From NCBI GenBank assembly GCA_024279915.1, contig JAJRRB010000048.1, positions 1 through 47,388 on the forward strand: a DNA stretch of 47,388 nucleotides. The letters run 5' to 3'. The notes beneath the pieces are model-generated. The model saw nothing but the letters and a program-made list of their open reading frames with translations. It was not told where the DNA came from and did no database searches. Every line of letters begins with the position of its first letter. The first letter of the stretch is position 1. The translations under genes were made by a program, and so were the position numbers. Positions 3,416 to 35,803 of the stretch are shown piece after piece. The DNA is from Deltaproteobacteria bacterium. GTDB taxonomy: Bacteria > Desulfobacterota > Desulfuromonadia > Desulfuromonadales > BM103.

Positions 3416-4401
3416 TTCGGTCCTGGTTCATCTTCACCATAATGTTTCTCTTCGCCTTTGTTATATTGACACCTGAACCGGTTGAAGCCCGCGGTGGTCG
3501 AGGCGGTGGATCTCGTATCTCTCGGGGAGGAGGTGGCTCCTTCGGCTCGATCCGTAACAGCGGCACCCCCTCTAGGGTGTCCTCTCCGAGTGGTTCCATA
3601 TCACGTCCATCGCAACCAGGCCAGGGAGGACCCGCCGACCAGGCTCAAGTACCTGCGCGCCAGGACTCTGTTCAGAGTGGCGAAGCTGAGGCACGTCGGC
3701 AGGACTGGCAGAACCAAACACCGGGCCAGCAGCAGAAGGTTCAGGACCGGGCCGAGCACGTGGAGCAACGTCAGGATGGAACCCTGGAAGACAACAAGGA
3801 GGATCGAGGGGACCGTTGGGAAGAGCGTGAAGATGCCCGTGAGGACTGGCAGGATTGGCGGGATGAGGCTCGCGAGGACTGGCAGGATTGGGCGGATGAT
3901 CGCTATGATGACTACAGGGCCAGTCACTGGCACTCCCACTGGTGGTATGGTGGCCATCATCACAGTAGTCTTACGGTTACATATTATGTGAGTAGCTCAC
4001 CGCCCTGCACGACCACAATTGTTCATACCAATGGCTACACCTATTACCACTGTGGGGCCACCTGGTATCAATCGACCTATTATCAGGGTGAGGTTAAATA
4101 CGTCCTTGTCTCAGCCCCTGCCGGTGTGGAGACCACCTCTCTTGATAATCATGAAATTGTTGTCGTTGACGGCAAGACCTACTATTTAAGTGAGCATACC
4201 TTCTATACGCGCATCACGCGCGACAAGAAGCATGTCTATGTGGTGGTTGATCCACCTTATGGCGCTCAGGTCATTGCCATTCCGGAATATGCCATAAAAG
4301 TAGAAAACAACGGTCAGACGTTCTATCGCGCGGACAAAATCTACTATCAGAAATCAACTGCGGTAACTGGTGGATATGTTGTTGTCAGGATGCCGTCTTA
4401 G
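3412..4401 (+). CDS. Secreted Gly/Ser-rich and Tyr-rich protein, DUF6515-like
   Basis: 329 residues with a clear signal peptide (about 1-26, ending PVEA). The mature protein starts with a Gly/Arg/Ser-rich stretch. A charged Gln/Glu/Asp/Arg region (about residues 75-165) follows, with a repeated EDWQDW block. Next comes a His/Trp-rich spot (HWHSHWWYGGHHH) and a Tyr/Val-rich C-terminal half with recurring short motifs such as GYTYYHCGATWYQ, GKTYYLSEHTFYTR and GQTFYRADKIYYQ. These three similar beta-hairpin-like units resemble the DUF6515 family. It is translationally coupled to the interrupted DUF2092 gene, with AAGGAGG just upstream of its ATG. An envelope or cell-surface role is likely; the His cluster could bind metal. 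No enzymatic motif is visible. Confidence 0.7.
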   Translation: MIRSWFIFTIMFLFAFVILTPEPVEARGGRGGGSRISRGGGGSFGSIRNSGTPSRVSSPSGSISRPSQPGQGGPADQAQVPARQDSVQSGEAEARRQDWQNQTPGQQQKVQDRAEHVEQRQDGTLEDNKEDRGDRWEEREDAREDWQDWRDEAREDWQDWADDRYDDYRASHWHSHWWYGGHHHSSLTVTYYVSSSPPCTTTIVHTNGYTYYHCGATWYQSTYYQGEVKYVLVSAPAGVETTSLDNHEIVVVDGKTYYLSEHTFYTRITRDKKHVYVVVDPPYGAQVIAIPEYAIKVENNGQTFYRADKIYYQKSTAVTGGYVVVRMPS

Positions 4402-4512: not shown

Positions 4513-5673
4513 TCATGGGACACCTTTTTCAGATTTCATCTTGAGAAGCTTCGTTTCAGGGAACCAGTGGCTCCAGACCATCCAGAAAACCCCAGGAAAG
4601 GTATTAAGCCGCTCTAGCTTTCCTTCCGGGGTCTGACCGTAGGGGTCGACTTGGTTTACCATAACCGGCTTGCCATTCAACTCCCCTTTAAAAACTCCAT
4701 AGGTTTCATATTCTGGGAACCAGGCCAAAACAATATTTTCACCACCCAATTGAATCATGTGAAGAGTGTTGGCCTCAATAAAACTTTTCGTCACGGCAAG
4801 ATATTCTCCACCTGCCTTTATACCAAGTACATGTTCACCCTGTGGAAGGCGATCGTCCTTGAGATCCAGGGTAGGAAAGAGCGGTTTGCCCGCGTAGTGG
4901 TCTACGAGCTCCCTGTCAAACAGGTAGGTGGAGATTCGATCCAACAGGTTGAAATCAGGATATGCCAGAACCATCCCGTCAGGATATAGTGAGCGGAATG
5001 CATGCCACGGCATTCTCTGTACCGGATATTGTTTCAAATCCTGGTTGCCATATACTCCTTTTCCCGTAATCTGCTGAAAGAGCTCCCCACTGTTCCGGTC
5101 GACAAAAACCAGGTTGTTATGAACTTGGGCAATAACCTTGTAGTCCGTAATCTGGCCTTCATACTCCGAGGTGAAGCCGATCGGCAGGTCACTCAAAACG
5201 CAGTAGGACATGCTGACCTTCCCCCCGGCAAAATCGTCGCCAGCTAGATGCGGCAGCCTCATCCACTGACGCGGAAAAGCACGGGCAACGCCATTGACCA
5301 CAAGCACGAGGACTTCGTCACCACCTTGAAGAAACTCGTCACCGACCTGAATGGAGGTATATTGCGCCGTATGTTGTATAGAACGGAGAAAAACGTCTGG
5401 GACAAACGTGTGGGTCAGGAAAAGGCTGCCAGCGACCACGAGAAGCAAAACAGCCATCACGGACTTTTTGGCCACCTTATGGATATGCTGATAAATGACC
5501 AAGAGAATGGCTAATATGCATGCAGCTATACTTATCTGAATGCGATAATAGTAGAAATTGAAGACCCAGGACGTGGGCAAATTGAACAACTGCCCGACAT
5601 CATTCAACAACAACGCACCGAGCACAAGCGGCAGGATCGTGACCAGCGTCAACAAGATAAATAGCGTTCTCAC
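4513..5673 (-). CDS. DUF3179 domain membrane protein
   Basis: 386 residues starting from GTG at 5673; the frame is closed by a TGA nine codons upstream, so no longer start exists. Three hydrophobic segments occupy the first 110 residues (about 1-23, 47-63 and 73-93). The rest matches the DUF3179 pattern: VNGVARAFPRQWMRLPHLAGDDFAG, then SYCVLSDLPIGF with its single conserved Cys, VHNNLVFVDRNSGELFQQITGKGVYG, and a PWHAFRSLYPDGMVL segment. Family members are membrane-anchored proteins of unknown activity with an exported globular domain, sometimes likened to thiol or protease-like folds. It stands alone between a plus-strand pair and another minus-strand gene. A short motif resembling the 3' half of a GEMM riboswitch lies about 60 nt upstream (see findings). 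Confidence 0.75.
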   Translation of the reverse strand: MRTLFILLTLVTILPLVLGALLLNDVGQLFNLPTSWVFNFYYYRIQISIAACILAILLVIYQHIHKVAKKSVMAVLLLVVAGSLFLTHTFVPDVFLRSIQHTAQYTSIQVGDEFLQGGDEVLVLVVNGVARAFPRQWMRLPHLAGDDFAGGKVSMSYCVLSDLPIGFTSEYEGQITDYKVIAQVHNNLVFVDRNSGELFQQITGKGVYGNQDLKQYPVQRMPWHAFRSLYPDGMVLAYPDFNLLDRISTYLFDRELVDHYAGKPLFPTLDLKDDRLPQGEHVLGIKAGGEYLAVTKSFIEANTLHMIQLGGENIVLAWFPEYETYGVFKGELNGKPVMVNQVDPYGQTPEGKLERLNTFPGVFWMVWSHWFPETKLLKMKSEKGVP

Positions 5674-33860: not shown

Positions 33861-34658
33861 ATGGCCGAAGAATTCCGTTCAGCTAAAATTGATGTTGAAC
33901 AGGGCAAGCGTCTCTACAAGGCTCTGACCGCAACCAGTGATGAGCTCTTTCAGGTTCTACTGGACCCGGAGATGCAGGTTCTGCGCTCAATCTTGAAGAA
34001 CCAGAGTCTGAGTGAAGATCATCTCCTGACTCTGCTCAAACGCCGTGACCTTACCGAAGACCTTCTCAAAGCCATATACCAATTGGAAATGGTTAAGGGC
34101 AGTCATCGTCTACAAGTTGCTCTGGTCAAAAATCCCGGTACGCCCGGACCGGTTGTACTTGCCCTGCTCCCATTCCTCCATCTGTTCGAACTGGTTGACC
34201 TCTGTCTGATCCCGGGCGTAACGCCGGATCAGAAGTTCGCTGCCGAACGGGCGATTCTACAGCGACTGCCGACCATTGAACTGGGCAACAAGATGACCCT
34301 GGCTCGCCGGGCAACAGCGACTGTCGTTGGTGAAATTCTTAAAGGAGGAGAAACCCGTCTGGTGGAAATTTGCCTTAGCAGTCCACGATTACGTGAAGTC
34401 GCAATACTGCAGTTTATCAACGGAGCCACTTCTTCAGCAGAGACCATTTCCATCATAGCAAGGCATTCTAAATGGAAATTGCGACCCAACTTAAGGCTCG
34501 CAATTCTCAAAAACCGACGAACCCCTGCCATCTGGTTCACTTTATTCCTTCCACAGCTGCGCACAGCAGATGTACGCAACCTGCTAACCTCCAGGAGCCT
34601 CAACCAAGCACAAAAAAAGCTCGTCCAAGACGAGCTAAAAAAACGTGGGTCTGGCTGA
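33861..34658 (+). CDS. Conserved hypothetical HEAT-like helical protein
   Basis: 265 residues, almost all alpha-helical, with no signal peptide or membrane segment. It has recurring units such as VLRSILKNQSLSEDHLLTLL, LQVALVKNPGTPGPVVLALLPF, EICLSSPRLREVAILQFI and LRLAILKNRRTPAIWF. The pattern L-x-LVKNPxTP followed by a helix pair suggests HEAT-like repeats that bind protein or RNA. I recognise it as a type of protein common in Geobacter relatives, of unknown function. It follows the second tgt by 32 bp and is probably co-transcribed with it. Confidence 0.75.
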   Translation: MAEEFRSAKIDVEQGKRLYKALTATSDELFQVLLDPEMQVLRSILKNQSLSEDHLLTLLKRRDLTEDLLKAIYQLEMVKGSHRLQVALVKNPGTPGPVVLALLPFLHLFELVDLCLIPGVTPDQKFAAERAILQRLPTIELGNKMTLARRATATVVGEILKGGETRLVEICLSSPRLREVAILQFINGATSSAETISIIARHSKWKLRPNLRLAILKNRRTPAIWFTLFLPQLRTADVRNLLTSRSLNQAQKKLVQDELKKRGSG

Positions 34659-34691
34659 AAGGAAAGTCACAAAGACAACACATGATTTTTC

Positions 34692-34776
34692 ACAAAAAAA
34701 CCCCGCAGCCTAAGGAGGAAGAAGAGGTCTACGGGGCAATGTTATCCAGGAGGCAAACAGTTATTTGTTCACCATG
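34692..34776 (-). ncRNA. Putative small RNA 2 with anti-Shine-Dalgarno motifs
   Basis: Minus-strand unit of about 85 nt. It begins after an extended -10 box and contains TGTTTGCCTCCTGGAT in an unpaired region (34760-34744). It ends in a hairpin CCCCGTAG/CTGCGGGG (34736-34729 with 34708-34701, 8 bp) extended by CCT/AGG. The loop shows TTCCTCCTT, and the stem is followed by seven T (34700-34694). Both exposed CCTCC words could pair with ribosome binding sites. It is a sequence and structure paralogue of the unit at 34851-34941. No reading frame with a start signal is present. Alternative reading: only a terminator for transcripts from rlpA. Confidence 0.5.
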
Positions 34777-34781
34777 TCTAC

Positions 34782-34790
34782 ATTTTACCA
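34782..34790 (-). promoter_or_regulatory. Extended -10 promoter of putative small RNA 2
   Basis: TGGTAAAAT on the minus strand is an extended -10 element (TG-N-TAAAAT). A half-match -35 (CCTACA) lies 18 bp upstream. The start would be near 34776. Confidence 0.4.
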
Positions 34791-34850
34791 CTTTACGTAG
34801 TCTTTTGTAGGCTCTGGCAATTAAAAAACCTGCTTCTAATCCCATGAATC

Positions 34851-34941
34851 GGCAAAAAAGGCCCCACAGCCAGGAGGGTGACTGCAGGGCAAATGTTTTG
34901 GGTTTCTCTTAGGAGGTAAACATGAAGGATCATGTTCTGTT
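34851..34941 (-). ncRNA. Putative small RNA 1 with anti-Shine-Dalgarno motifs
   Basis: Minus-strand unit of about 90 nt following a near-consensus promoter. It has an unpaired 5' part with CATGTTTACCTCCTAAG, the complement of an ideal ribosome binding site plus ATG. A 9-bp hairpin follows, GCCCTGCAG/CTGTGGGGC (34890-34882 with 34869-34861, two wobbles), with loop TCACCCTCCTGG. Six T end it (34859-34854). Shared features with the unit at 34692-34776 are the TGTTT(A/G)CCTCCT word, the GC-rich hairpin with CCTCC in its loop, and the T-run. I infer trans-acting RNAs that bind ribosome binding sites. Alternatively it is the terminator of rlpA, whose stop is about 150 bp upstream. Confidence 0.55.
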
Positions 34942-34947
34942 GTCTAT

Positions 34948-34975
34948 ATATTACTTTTATTGTTATATATGTCAA
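34948..34975 (-). promoter_or_regulatory. Sigma-70 promoter of putative small RNA 1
   Basis: TTGACA (34975-34970) is followed after 16 bp by TAATAT (34953-34948), in a very AT-rich spacer. It points away from rlpA toward the two hairpin units and no protein gene, which supports a small-RNA function. Confidence 0.6.
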
Positions 34976-34992
34976 GAGAGAAAATGAAAATA

Positions 34993-35033
34993 AACTGCCT
35001 CGCCGCAAGCAACGGGGTATCAACAGCCTTCAA
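34993..35033. repeat. REP-like repeat, second copy
   Basis: 41 nt matching 29213-29252 at 36 of 41 positions, including CCTCG, GCAAGC, GGTATCAACAGCCT. It ends three bases before the rlpA stop codon; as at typA, the repeat abuts a gene's 3' end. Confidence 0.6.
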
Positions 35034-35035
35034 AG

Positions 35036-35803
35036 TCACTTGGCAACAATAAAACTACTCGGATAACCATTACTTTCGATCTGCATCAGGGCATCATCGG
35101 CCAACACCATGGAAGTATAAAGACCGACACGAACCCGGTAAAACTTCTGACCATTCACCCAGCCTTCAACCACAGCCGAGCGGCCATACTGACTTTTGAG
35201 TTTATCTGCCAAACGATAGGCGTTCTCTTTAACCGTAAATGCACCGATCTGGACCATGAATGGACCAACATCGTAGCTGACCAGTTGTCGATATTGAGGT
35301 GTCGCTCCACTGCGAACTTCATCGCGGTAGCCTAGGGCTTCAATACGAACCGGCGCTGTACCAGGACCGACCACACCTAACTCCTTGGCTGCGGAATAAG
35401 AGAGATCAATAATCCTGCTCCTGACGAATGGACCGCGATCATTGACCCGCACCACCGTCGAACGGCCATTATCCAGATTGGTGACCTTAAGATGGACATT
35501 CATCGGCAATGTTTTATGTGCCGCTGTCATCGCATACATGTCGTAGGTTTCGCCATTGCTGGTCTTACGACCGTGGAATTTCTTACCGTACCAGCTGGCA
35601 AGACCCTTCTCGGAATAACCATCTGCGGAAGGTATCGGCTGATAACGTTCGCCGTTAATCTCATAAGCTCTTTGAGTCGGTTTCTTCTCAGTCTGAGAGG
35701 GTGCATCAGAGACTCTGACCTTATAGGTAGGGGTCGGAGTACTGCAAGCGGCAAGCAGTAGTATCAGTACGAAAAAAGAAAAGTCTTTAATAAATTTCAT
35801 CAT
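35036..35803 (-). CDS. rlpA: Septal ring lytic transglycosylase RlpA with SPOR domain
   Basis: 255 residues. A lipoprotein signal has its lipobox at residue 20 (LLAAC). After a linker comes the double-psi beta-barrel domain (about 65-155): GLASWYGKKFHGRKTSNGE, then AMTAAHKTLPMNVHLKVTN and VRVNDRGPFV. The catalytic Glu, His and Asp positions of RlpA are present. A C-terminal SPOR domain (about 180-255, PFMVQIGAFTVKENAYRLADKL) targets denuded glycan at division septa. RlpA cleaves stem-free peptidoglycan strands during daughter-cell separation. It follows the PfkB gene by 48 bp. Confidence 0.95.
   Translation of the reverse strand: MMKFIKDFSFFVLILLLAACSTPTPTYKVRVSDAPSQTEKKPTQRAYEINGERYQPIPSADGYSEKGLASWYGKKFHGRKTSNGETYDMYAMTAAHKTLPMNVHLKVTNLDNGRSTVVRVNDRGPFVRSRIIDLSYSAAKELGVVGPGTAPVRIEALGYRDEVRSGATPQYRQLVSYDVGPFMVQIGAFTVKENAYRLADKLKSQYGRSAVVEGWVNGQKFYRVRVGLYTSMVLADDALMQIESNGYPSSFIVAK

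Follow-up and report, generated by a model that had tools for sequence, protein, structure and literature searches.

CcsR RNAs carry the CCUCCUCCC motif. CcsR1-4 of Rhodobacter sphaeroides are four neighbouring RNAs, which share a transcript with a DUF1127 gene and undergo RNase E cleavage (PMC10253847). For alpha-r14 (NfeR1) of the Alphaproteobacteria, three hairpins are described, each with CCUCCUCCC, in RNAs that act in trans and pair at ribosome binding sites (PMC10746234). The atoC RNA of delta-Proteobacteria is listed as a probable RNA and a probable cis-regulator (PMC2864571).

The two units described here are situated on the minus strand of the gap between rlpA and a plus-strand gene (34659-35035 of the window, i.e. 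of the whole 47,388-nt stretch of DNA that was analysed). The organism belongs to the Desulfuromonadales, which are metal- and sulfur-respiring bacteria. rlpA (35036-35803, minus strand) encodes lytic transglycolase and SPOR domains according to Pfam; the plus-strand gene (33861-34658), for which Pfam gave no match, is convergent to unit 2 and its next downstream feature in the window. A third terminator-like hairpin of 8 pairs, followed by six T, lies within the 3' end of this gene (34618-34636, minus strand). The fold z-scores of units 1 and 2 are -4.4 and -2.8, respectively. ARAGORN found no tRNA, and the Rfam scan of the window returned no family at the gathering score.

A first-pass annotation of the sequence had proposed a tandem pair of similar small RNAs. 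Both units are real and beyond chance in that each recurs as a family in relatives. When aligned globally with lenient settings, they are identical at 59 of 96 columns, but they are not close copies, BLAST with one missing the copies of the other. The pair is not a conserved tandem duplicate either: each unit is a single member of its own dispersed family, and a related genome (G010) has unit 1 alone.

With alpha-r14 the units share constant unpaired anti-Shine-Dalgarno (anti-SD) words on variable stems (PMC10746234). In contrast to alpha-r14, they have two hairpins and shorter CCUCC words, occur in another phylum and show no Rfam cross-match at the gathering score; given the two hairpins and the lack of CCTCCTCCC in the window units, they are not counted among these RNAs. 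As with the CcsR or cuckoo RNAs, several homologous small RNAs are found per genome (PMC10253847), but the units are dispersed single genes, and unit 1 has its own promoter. The units are best read as working like alpha-r14 and CcsR RNAs in a lineage-specific, dispersed variant, and the anti-SD design of Desulfuromonadales would then probably have arisen by convergence with Alphaproteobacteria.

Architecture of the two units

Unit 1 comprises a promoter and ~90 nt. The promoter (34948-34975, minus strand), previously read as TTGACA-N16-TAATAT, was confirmed by a promoter scan, which gave one site compared to a mean of 0.6 in shuffled sequences; the -35 box TTGACA (34975-34970) and the -10 box TAATAT (34953-34948), separated by a 16-nt spacer, match the consensus at 10 of 12 positions. 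Downstream follow a 5' hairpin (34918-34937), which has 8 bp in the window copy and shows covariation, and, 3' of it, the anti-SD word CCTCCT (34911-34916, within ACCTCCT). The intrinsic terminator (34854-34890) consists of a hairpin (34890-34861) that exposes the loop CCCTCC (34878-34873) and a run of six T (34859-34854). A near-palindrome overlaps the promoter (34946-34970, minus strand); across 40 copies, a mean of 7.1 of 10 positions are complementary, compared to 1.3-3.7 at shifted centres, and covariation gives no clear signal there. The palindrome is a tentative candidate for an operator, and a regulator bound to it would set the expression of unit 1.

Of the promoter-like element proposed for unit 2, the extended -10 element TGGTAAAAT (34782-34790, minus strand) is seen in the sequence and in the family alignment, whereas the scan found no -35 site. 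In the 5' hairpin (34751-34774, minus strand), the 3' arm continues into the first CCT of the anti-SD word CCTCCT (34748-34753), which is thus partly within the arm. The terminator (34694-34737) has arms at 34737-34729 and 34708-34700, a pyrimidine-rich loop with CCTCC (34718-34714) and seven T; it is missing from the terminator scan because its loop exceeds the length that the scan allows. Sequence and fold hence bear out, for both units, the hairpin with a CCTCC loop ahead of six or seven T. The adjoining TGTTT(A/G)CCTCCT, which had been taken as unpaired, fares less well: the fold places TGTTT in the 3' arm of the 5' hairpin of both units, and a conserved unpaired anti-SD word is found in unit 1, the word of unit 2 being partly paired.

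Conservation and distribution of the unit 1 family

Family f1 contributes 22 of the 40 genomes searched by BLAST (<1e-3), and 18 of these 22 have unit 1 matches; outside the family, one genome (G037) does. Forty copies were aligned with MAFFT (alignment A1) and turned into the covariance model R1, which at E 0.01, weak matches counted in, has hits in 72 of the 136 genomes that represent the order and in 20 of the 22 in family f1. Of 395 genomes sampled from the phylum, seven are matched at E 1e-4. Six of these belong to the order; the seventh (G178), whose single copy comes from an assembly of 380 contigs, is perhaps a stray. The exact terminator pattern occurs in 29 stretches of a species-genome collection, titled Desulfuromonadales, Geobacteraceae or Deltaproteobacteria. 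With laxer filters, R1 matches reach 24 in each of two genomes (G001 and G006) and 13 in G012; the own genome has 11, of which six score above 100 bits, while the other five (33.9-49.2 bits) include at least one unit 2 copy. One copy in G006 (L285:2001-2157, i.e. G006:C89:122132-122288, minus strand) carries a run of ~30 C in the terminator loop, possibly a slippage or assembly artefact.

The first-pass annotation had suggested a covariance check of the units in relatives; for unit 1, homologues with compensatory changes were found in the order. The R1 search of 91 sources yielded 98 matches, 97 of them distinct, which were combined in a 98-row alignment fitted to the structure. Over the 97 distinct copies of this alignment, 94.7% of the cells pair, changes on both sides occur in 14 of the 16 pairs and in two helices (85 cells, compared to 13.2 in shuffles), and sliding the partners lowers pairing to 42-54%. 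The plain MAFFT alignment A1 of 40 copies is 93.7% paired and has two-sided changes in 5 of 16 pairs (9 cells, compared to 1.8 in shuffles); RNAalifold, applied to A1, predicts the terminator helix only and not the 5' hairpin.

The anti-SD words rank among the most constant parts of the family. In 80 of 97 copies CCTCC precedes the terminator, and it is likewise present in 80 of 97 within the final 50 nt, which served as a proxy for the loop. The T-run is kept in 94 and TTGACA in 83; the 50-nt flanks contain CCTCC in 4 of 187 cases. Forty of the 97 copies trained R1. The remaining 57, which are not independent since they were found with a model containing the words, have CCTCC ahead of the terminator in 41 copies and in the last 50 nt in 47, the T-run in 54 and TTGACA in 43. 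Thirteen distant R1 matches have the terminator loop CCCTCC or CCCTC on differing stems; they were pre-screened for C-rich or CCTCC stretches and thus yield no proportion.

Another reading sees in the units plain termination signals that serve rlpA and other genes and have CCTCC in the loop for structural reasons or by chance; the terminators are strong, and unit 1 does follow directly behind rlpA on the same strand. The conserved unit, however, has its own promoter and a covarying 5' hairpin, CCTCC recurs outside the terminator, and copies are found beside different genes; the earlier, weaker reading of two rlpA terminators is therefore not favoured, and we regard it as very improbable. Still further from likely is a small protein encoded on the plus strand, where the reverse complement reads AGGAGGT-spacer-ATG-AAG and 38 of 40 copies have an ATG at Shine-Dalgarno spacing. 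A stop codon interrupts the frame within the aligned unit in 20 of the 40 copies (in five after three codons); in 18 the frame continues beyond the unit, and two copies are without such an ATG; in view of the in-unit stops and of a promoter and T-run that face the opposite way, this small ORF was rejected.

Unit 2, the atoC RNA and other described families

Unit 2 copies were found by BLAST (<1e-3) in 7 of 26 genomes, every one in genus g1. At E 0.01, model R2, built from an alignment of 20 copies (A2), has hits in 37 of the order's 136 genomes and exceeds 50 bits in genus g1 only. Covariation is slight: 96.9% of the cells are paired, and a single pair has two-sided changes, the same as in most shuffles. 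Unit 1 copies, too, are recognised by R2; most score 29-37 bits, and one (G008:C561) reaches 52.3. Several places match both models at similar strength, among them G000:C56:96776-96893 of the own genome (R1 49.2 bits, R2 57.2 bits), and a unit 1-like loop is present in some unit 2 copies. The copies that match both models and the shared loop type point to a common descent of the two families, as we infer from these sequence comparisons.

Listeria LhrC, the Betaproteobacteria toxic small RNA and suhB/mmgR have pyrimidine-rich loops. Their models (RF00616, RF02278 and RF00519) score the units or their relatives at 14.8-33 bits, below the gathering scores of 110, 50 and 41, respectively, and come from unrelated hosts. 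Such sub-gathering Rfam matches were treated as chance or convergence, with the exception of atoC, which was followed up because its match is full-length and from the same group.

At E 0.001, the atoC RNA (RF01733) has hits in 59 of the order's 136 genomes, nine of them over the cut-off, and none in the own genome. It is found in the same order as the units and, like them, has a hairpin and then a terminator with a CCCTCC (CCCUCCU) loop and a T-run, the hairpin and CCCUCCU-loop terminator being evident in the consensus; RF01733 is filed as cis-regulatory. When ten of 12 fetched atoC loci, screened for CCTCC and hence giving no proportion, were folded, the terminator loop was CCCTCC or CCCTC on differing stems. 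Compared with the 50 bits set for membership, unit 2 reaches 23.3 bits in a full-length alignment, and unit 1 is not listed by the RF01733 model at E 5. A kinship of unit 2 with the atoC RNA is possible.

Genomic setting and proposed function

At the eight loci of the own genome, the neighbours differ and no gene recurs. Among all 98 copies, the downstream neighbour is on the same strand in 56, on the opposite strand in 33 and absent from the analysed stretch in 9; a same-strand ORF starts within 200 nt downstream in 24 of the 98, and 16 overlap a mechanically called ORF of at least 100 aa. The same-strand neighbours, in particular the 24 close ones, would be in line with a cis-acting leader or attenuator of the downstream gene, which is how RF01733 is annotated; the similarly built atoC RNA appears in the literature as a cis-regulatory element (PMC2864571). 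Such a role is conceivable for some copies, but as a general explanation we consider it unlikely in view of the opposite-strand and missing neighbours, the lack of a shared neighbour at the own-genome loci and the convergent gene that follows unit 2 in the window.

In G010, the outer genes on either side of unit 1 are orthologous to those in the window, each at 89% identity; a 487-codon ORF sits between rlpA and the unit, and unit 2 has no match at the locus. Unit 1 was not found at 23 other best rlpA loci, within up to 1.5 kb on each side, a negative that does not prove its absence near rlpA, as the G010 copy falls just beyond such a stretch. The many non-syntenic copies, this result and the proximity of many copies to another dispersed repeat could also be explained by a selfish or mobile intergenic element (REP- or MITE-like) that carries promoter and terminator by chance. 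Compensatory changes and kept single-stranded words argue against such an element, as does the lack of matches in plasmid and phage collections at E 1e-5, and we give it a low probability; the copies can, nevertheless, be both mobile and functional RNA.

The other repeat (~110-125 bp, ATAAGTCACGACTT ... GGCCACC-loop-GGTGGCC-T-run) lies 3' of many genes, on their strand and often several times per locus; many copies of units 1 and 2 also have it immediately upstream (seen at L053, L217, L288, L031 and others). At L031, in the own genome, it occupies 2061-2176, 4137-4243 and 4880-4975 (minus strand); a search for it did not match the unit copies of the window. Its identification as an integron attC site was not taken up; no attC-like ends were apparent by eye. 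An integron-integrase model is above the cut-off in 5 of 23 genomes. In the own genome it stays under it, the best match being a partial one with 236 of 265 bits, and it is not above it in G001 and G006, which hold several repeats. Downstream of the unit 1 copy at L031, a match to the c-di-GMP-I-UAU riboswitch (3615-3691, minus strand; 65.4 bits, gathering score 65.9) precedes a 387-codon ORF with a lipoprotein-like start.

At the sequence level, conserved promoter and intrinsic terminator signals delineate a free-standing RNA gene, and the units very probably belong to a family of small-RNA genes. We favour, as the probable reading, that units 1 and 2 encode short RNAs which end at an intrinsic terminator, act in trans by covering Shine-Dalgarno sequences and represent two related multicopy families of the Desulfuromonadales; anti-SD pairing as the mechanism is likely, albeit a little less so. 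Of the original proposal of trans-acting anti-SD RNAs, the small-RNA part is upheld by the compensatory changes, the lack of an Rfam family at the gathering score and the constant words; blocking of ribosome binding sites is plausible.

Pairing was modelled at 92 start sites, picked mechanically from the window and 11 own-genome loci. The predicted pairing of the free words of both units is best near -10 and beats 100 of 100 shuffles; for the terminator-loop segment of unit 1 it is not above shuffles, 29 of 100 being as good. A strong Shine-Dalgarno sequence is present at 26 of the 92 start sites and, at a control place, in none of the 92. The own genome carries an Hfq gene, and a search of 31 genomes detected one in 26. 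A 20-base probe for long antisense targets hit 23 places, 22 of which are the copies themselves and one of which lies elsewhere in G006, giving no clear target. GGA is the known CsrA motif, and a CsrA sponge was discarded as a candidate, the folded 93-nt unit 1 RNA containing no GGA.

The small RNAs could operate in the following manner: Transcription would start just below the -10 box and end at the T-run. The RNA, perhaps together with Hfq, may then pair via CCUCC(U) to the Shine-Dalgarno sequences of mRNAs and thereby block 30S binding, and the bases flanking CCUCC(U) would provide target choice. As a far more speculative and rather doubtful extension, unit 1, unit 2 and atoC might form one anti-SD superfamily that radiated in Desulfuromonadales and in some genomes reached roughly two dozen dispersed copies. 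Controlled by a common operator in their promoters, these copies would jointly slow Shine-Dalgarno-dependent translation in a dose-dependent manner; atoC would then be a misfiled small RNA instead of a cis-regulatory one.

A literature search, considered at the level of its result listings, gave no paper on such RNAs in Desulfuromonadales. If the favoured reading of trans-acting small RNAs is true, the anti-SD small-RNA design of Alphaproteobacteria exists in another lineage, where its genes are dispersed, and the annotation of RF01733 as cis-regulatory is put in question. These RNAs, of which a genome can have as many as 24 matches and which are matched in 72 of 136 genomes, would be a main candidate for post-transcriptional control in Desulfuromonadales.
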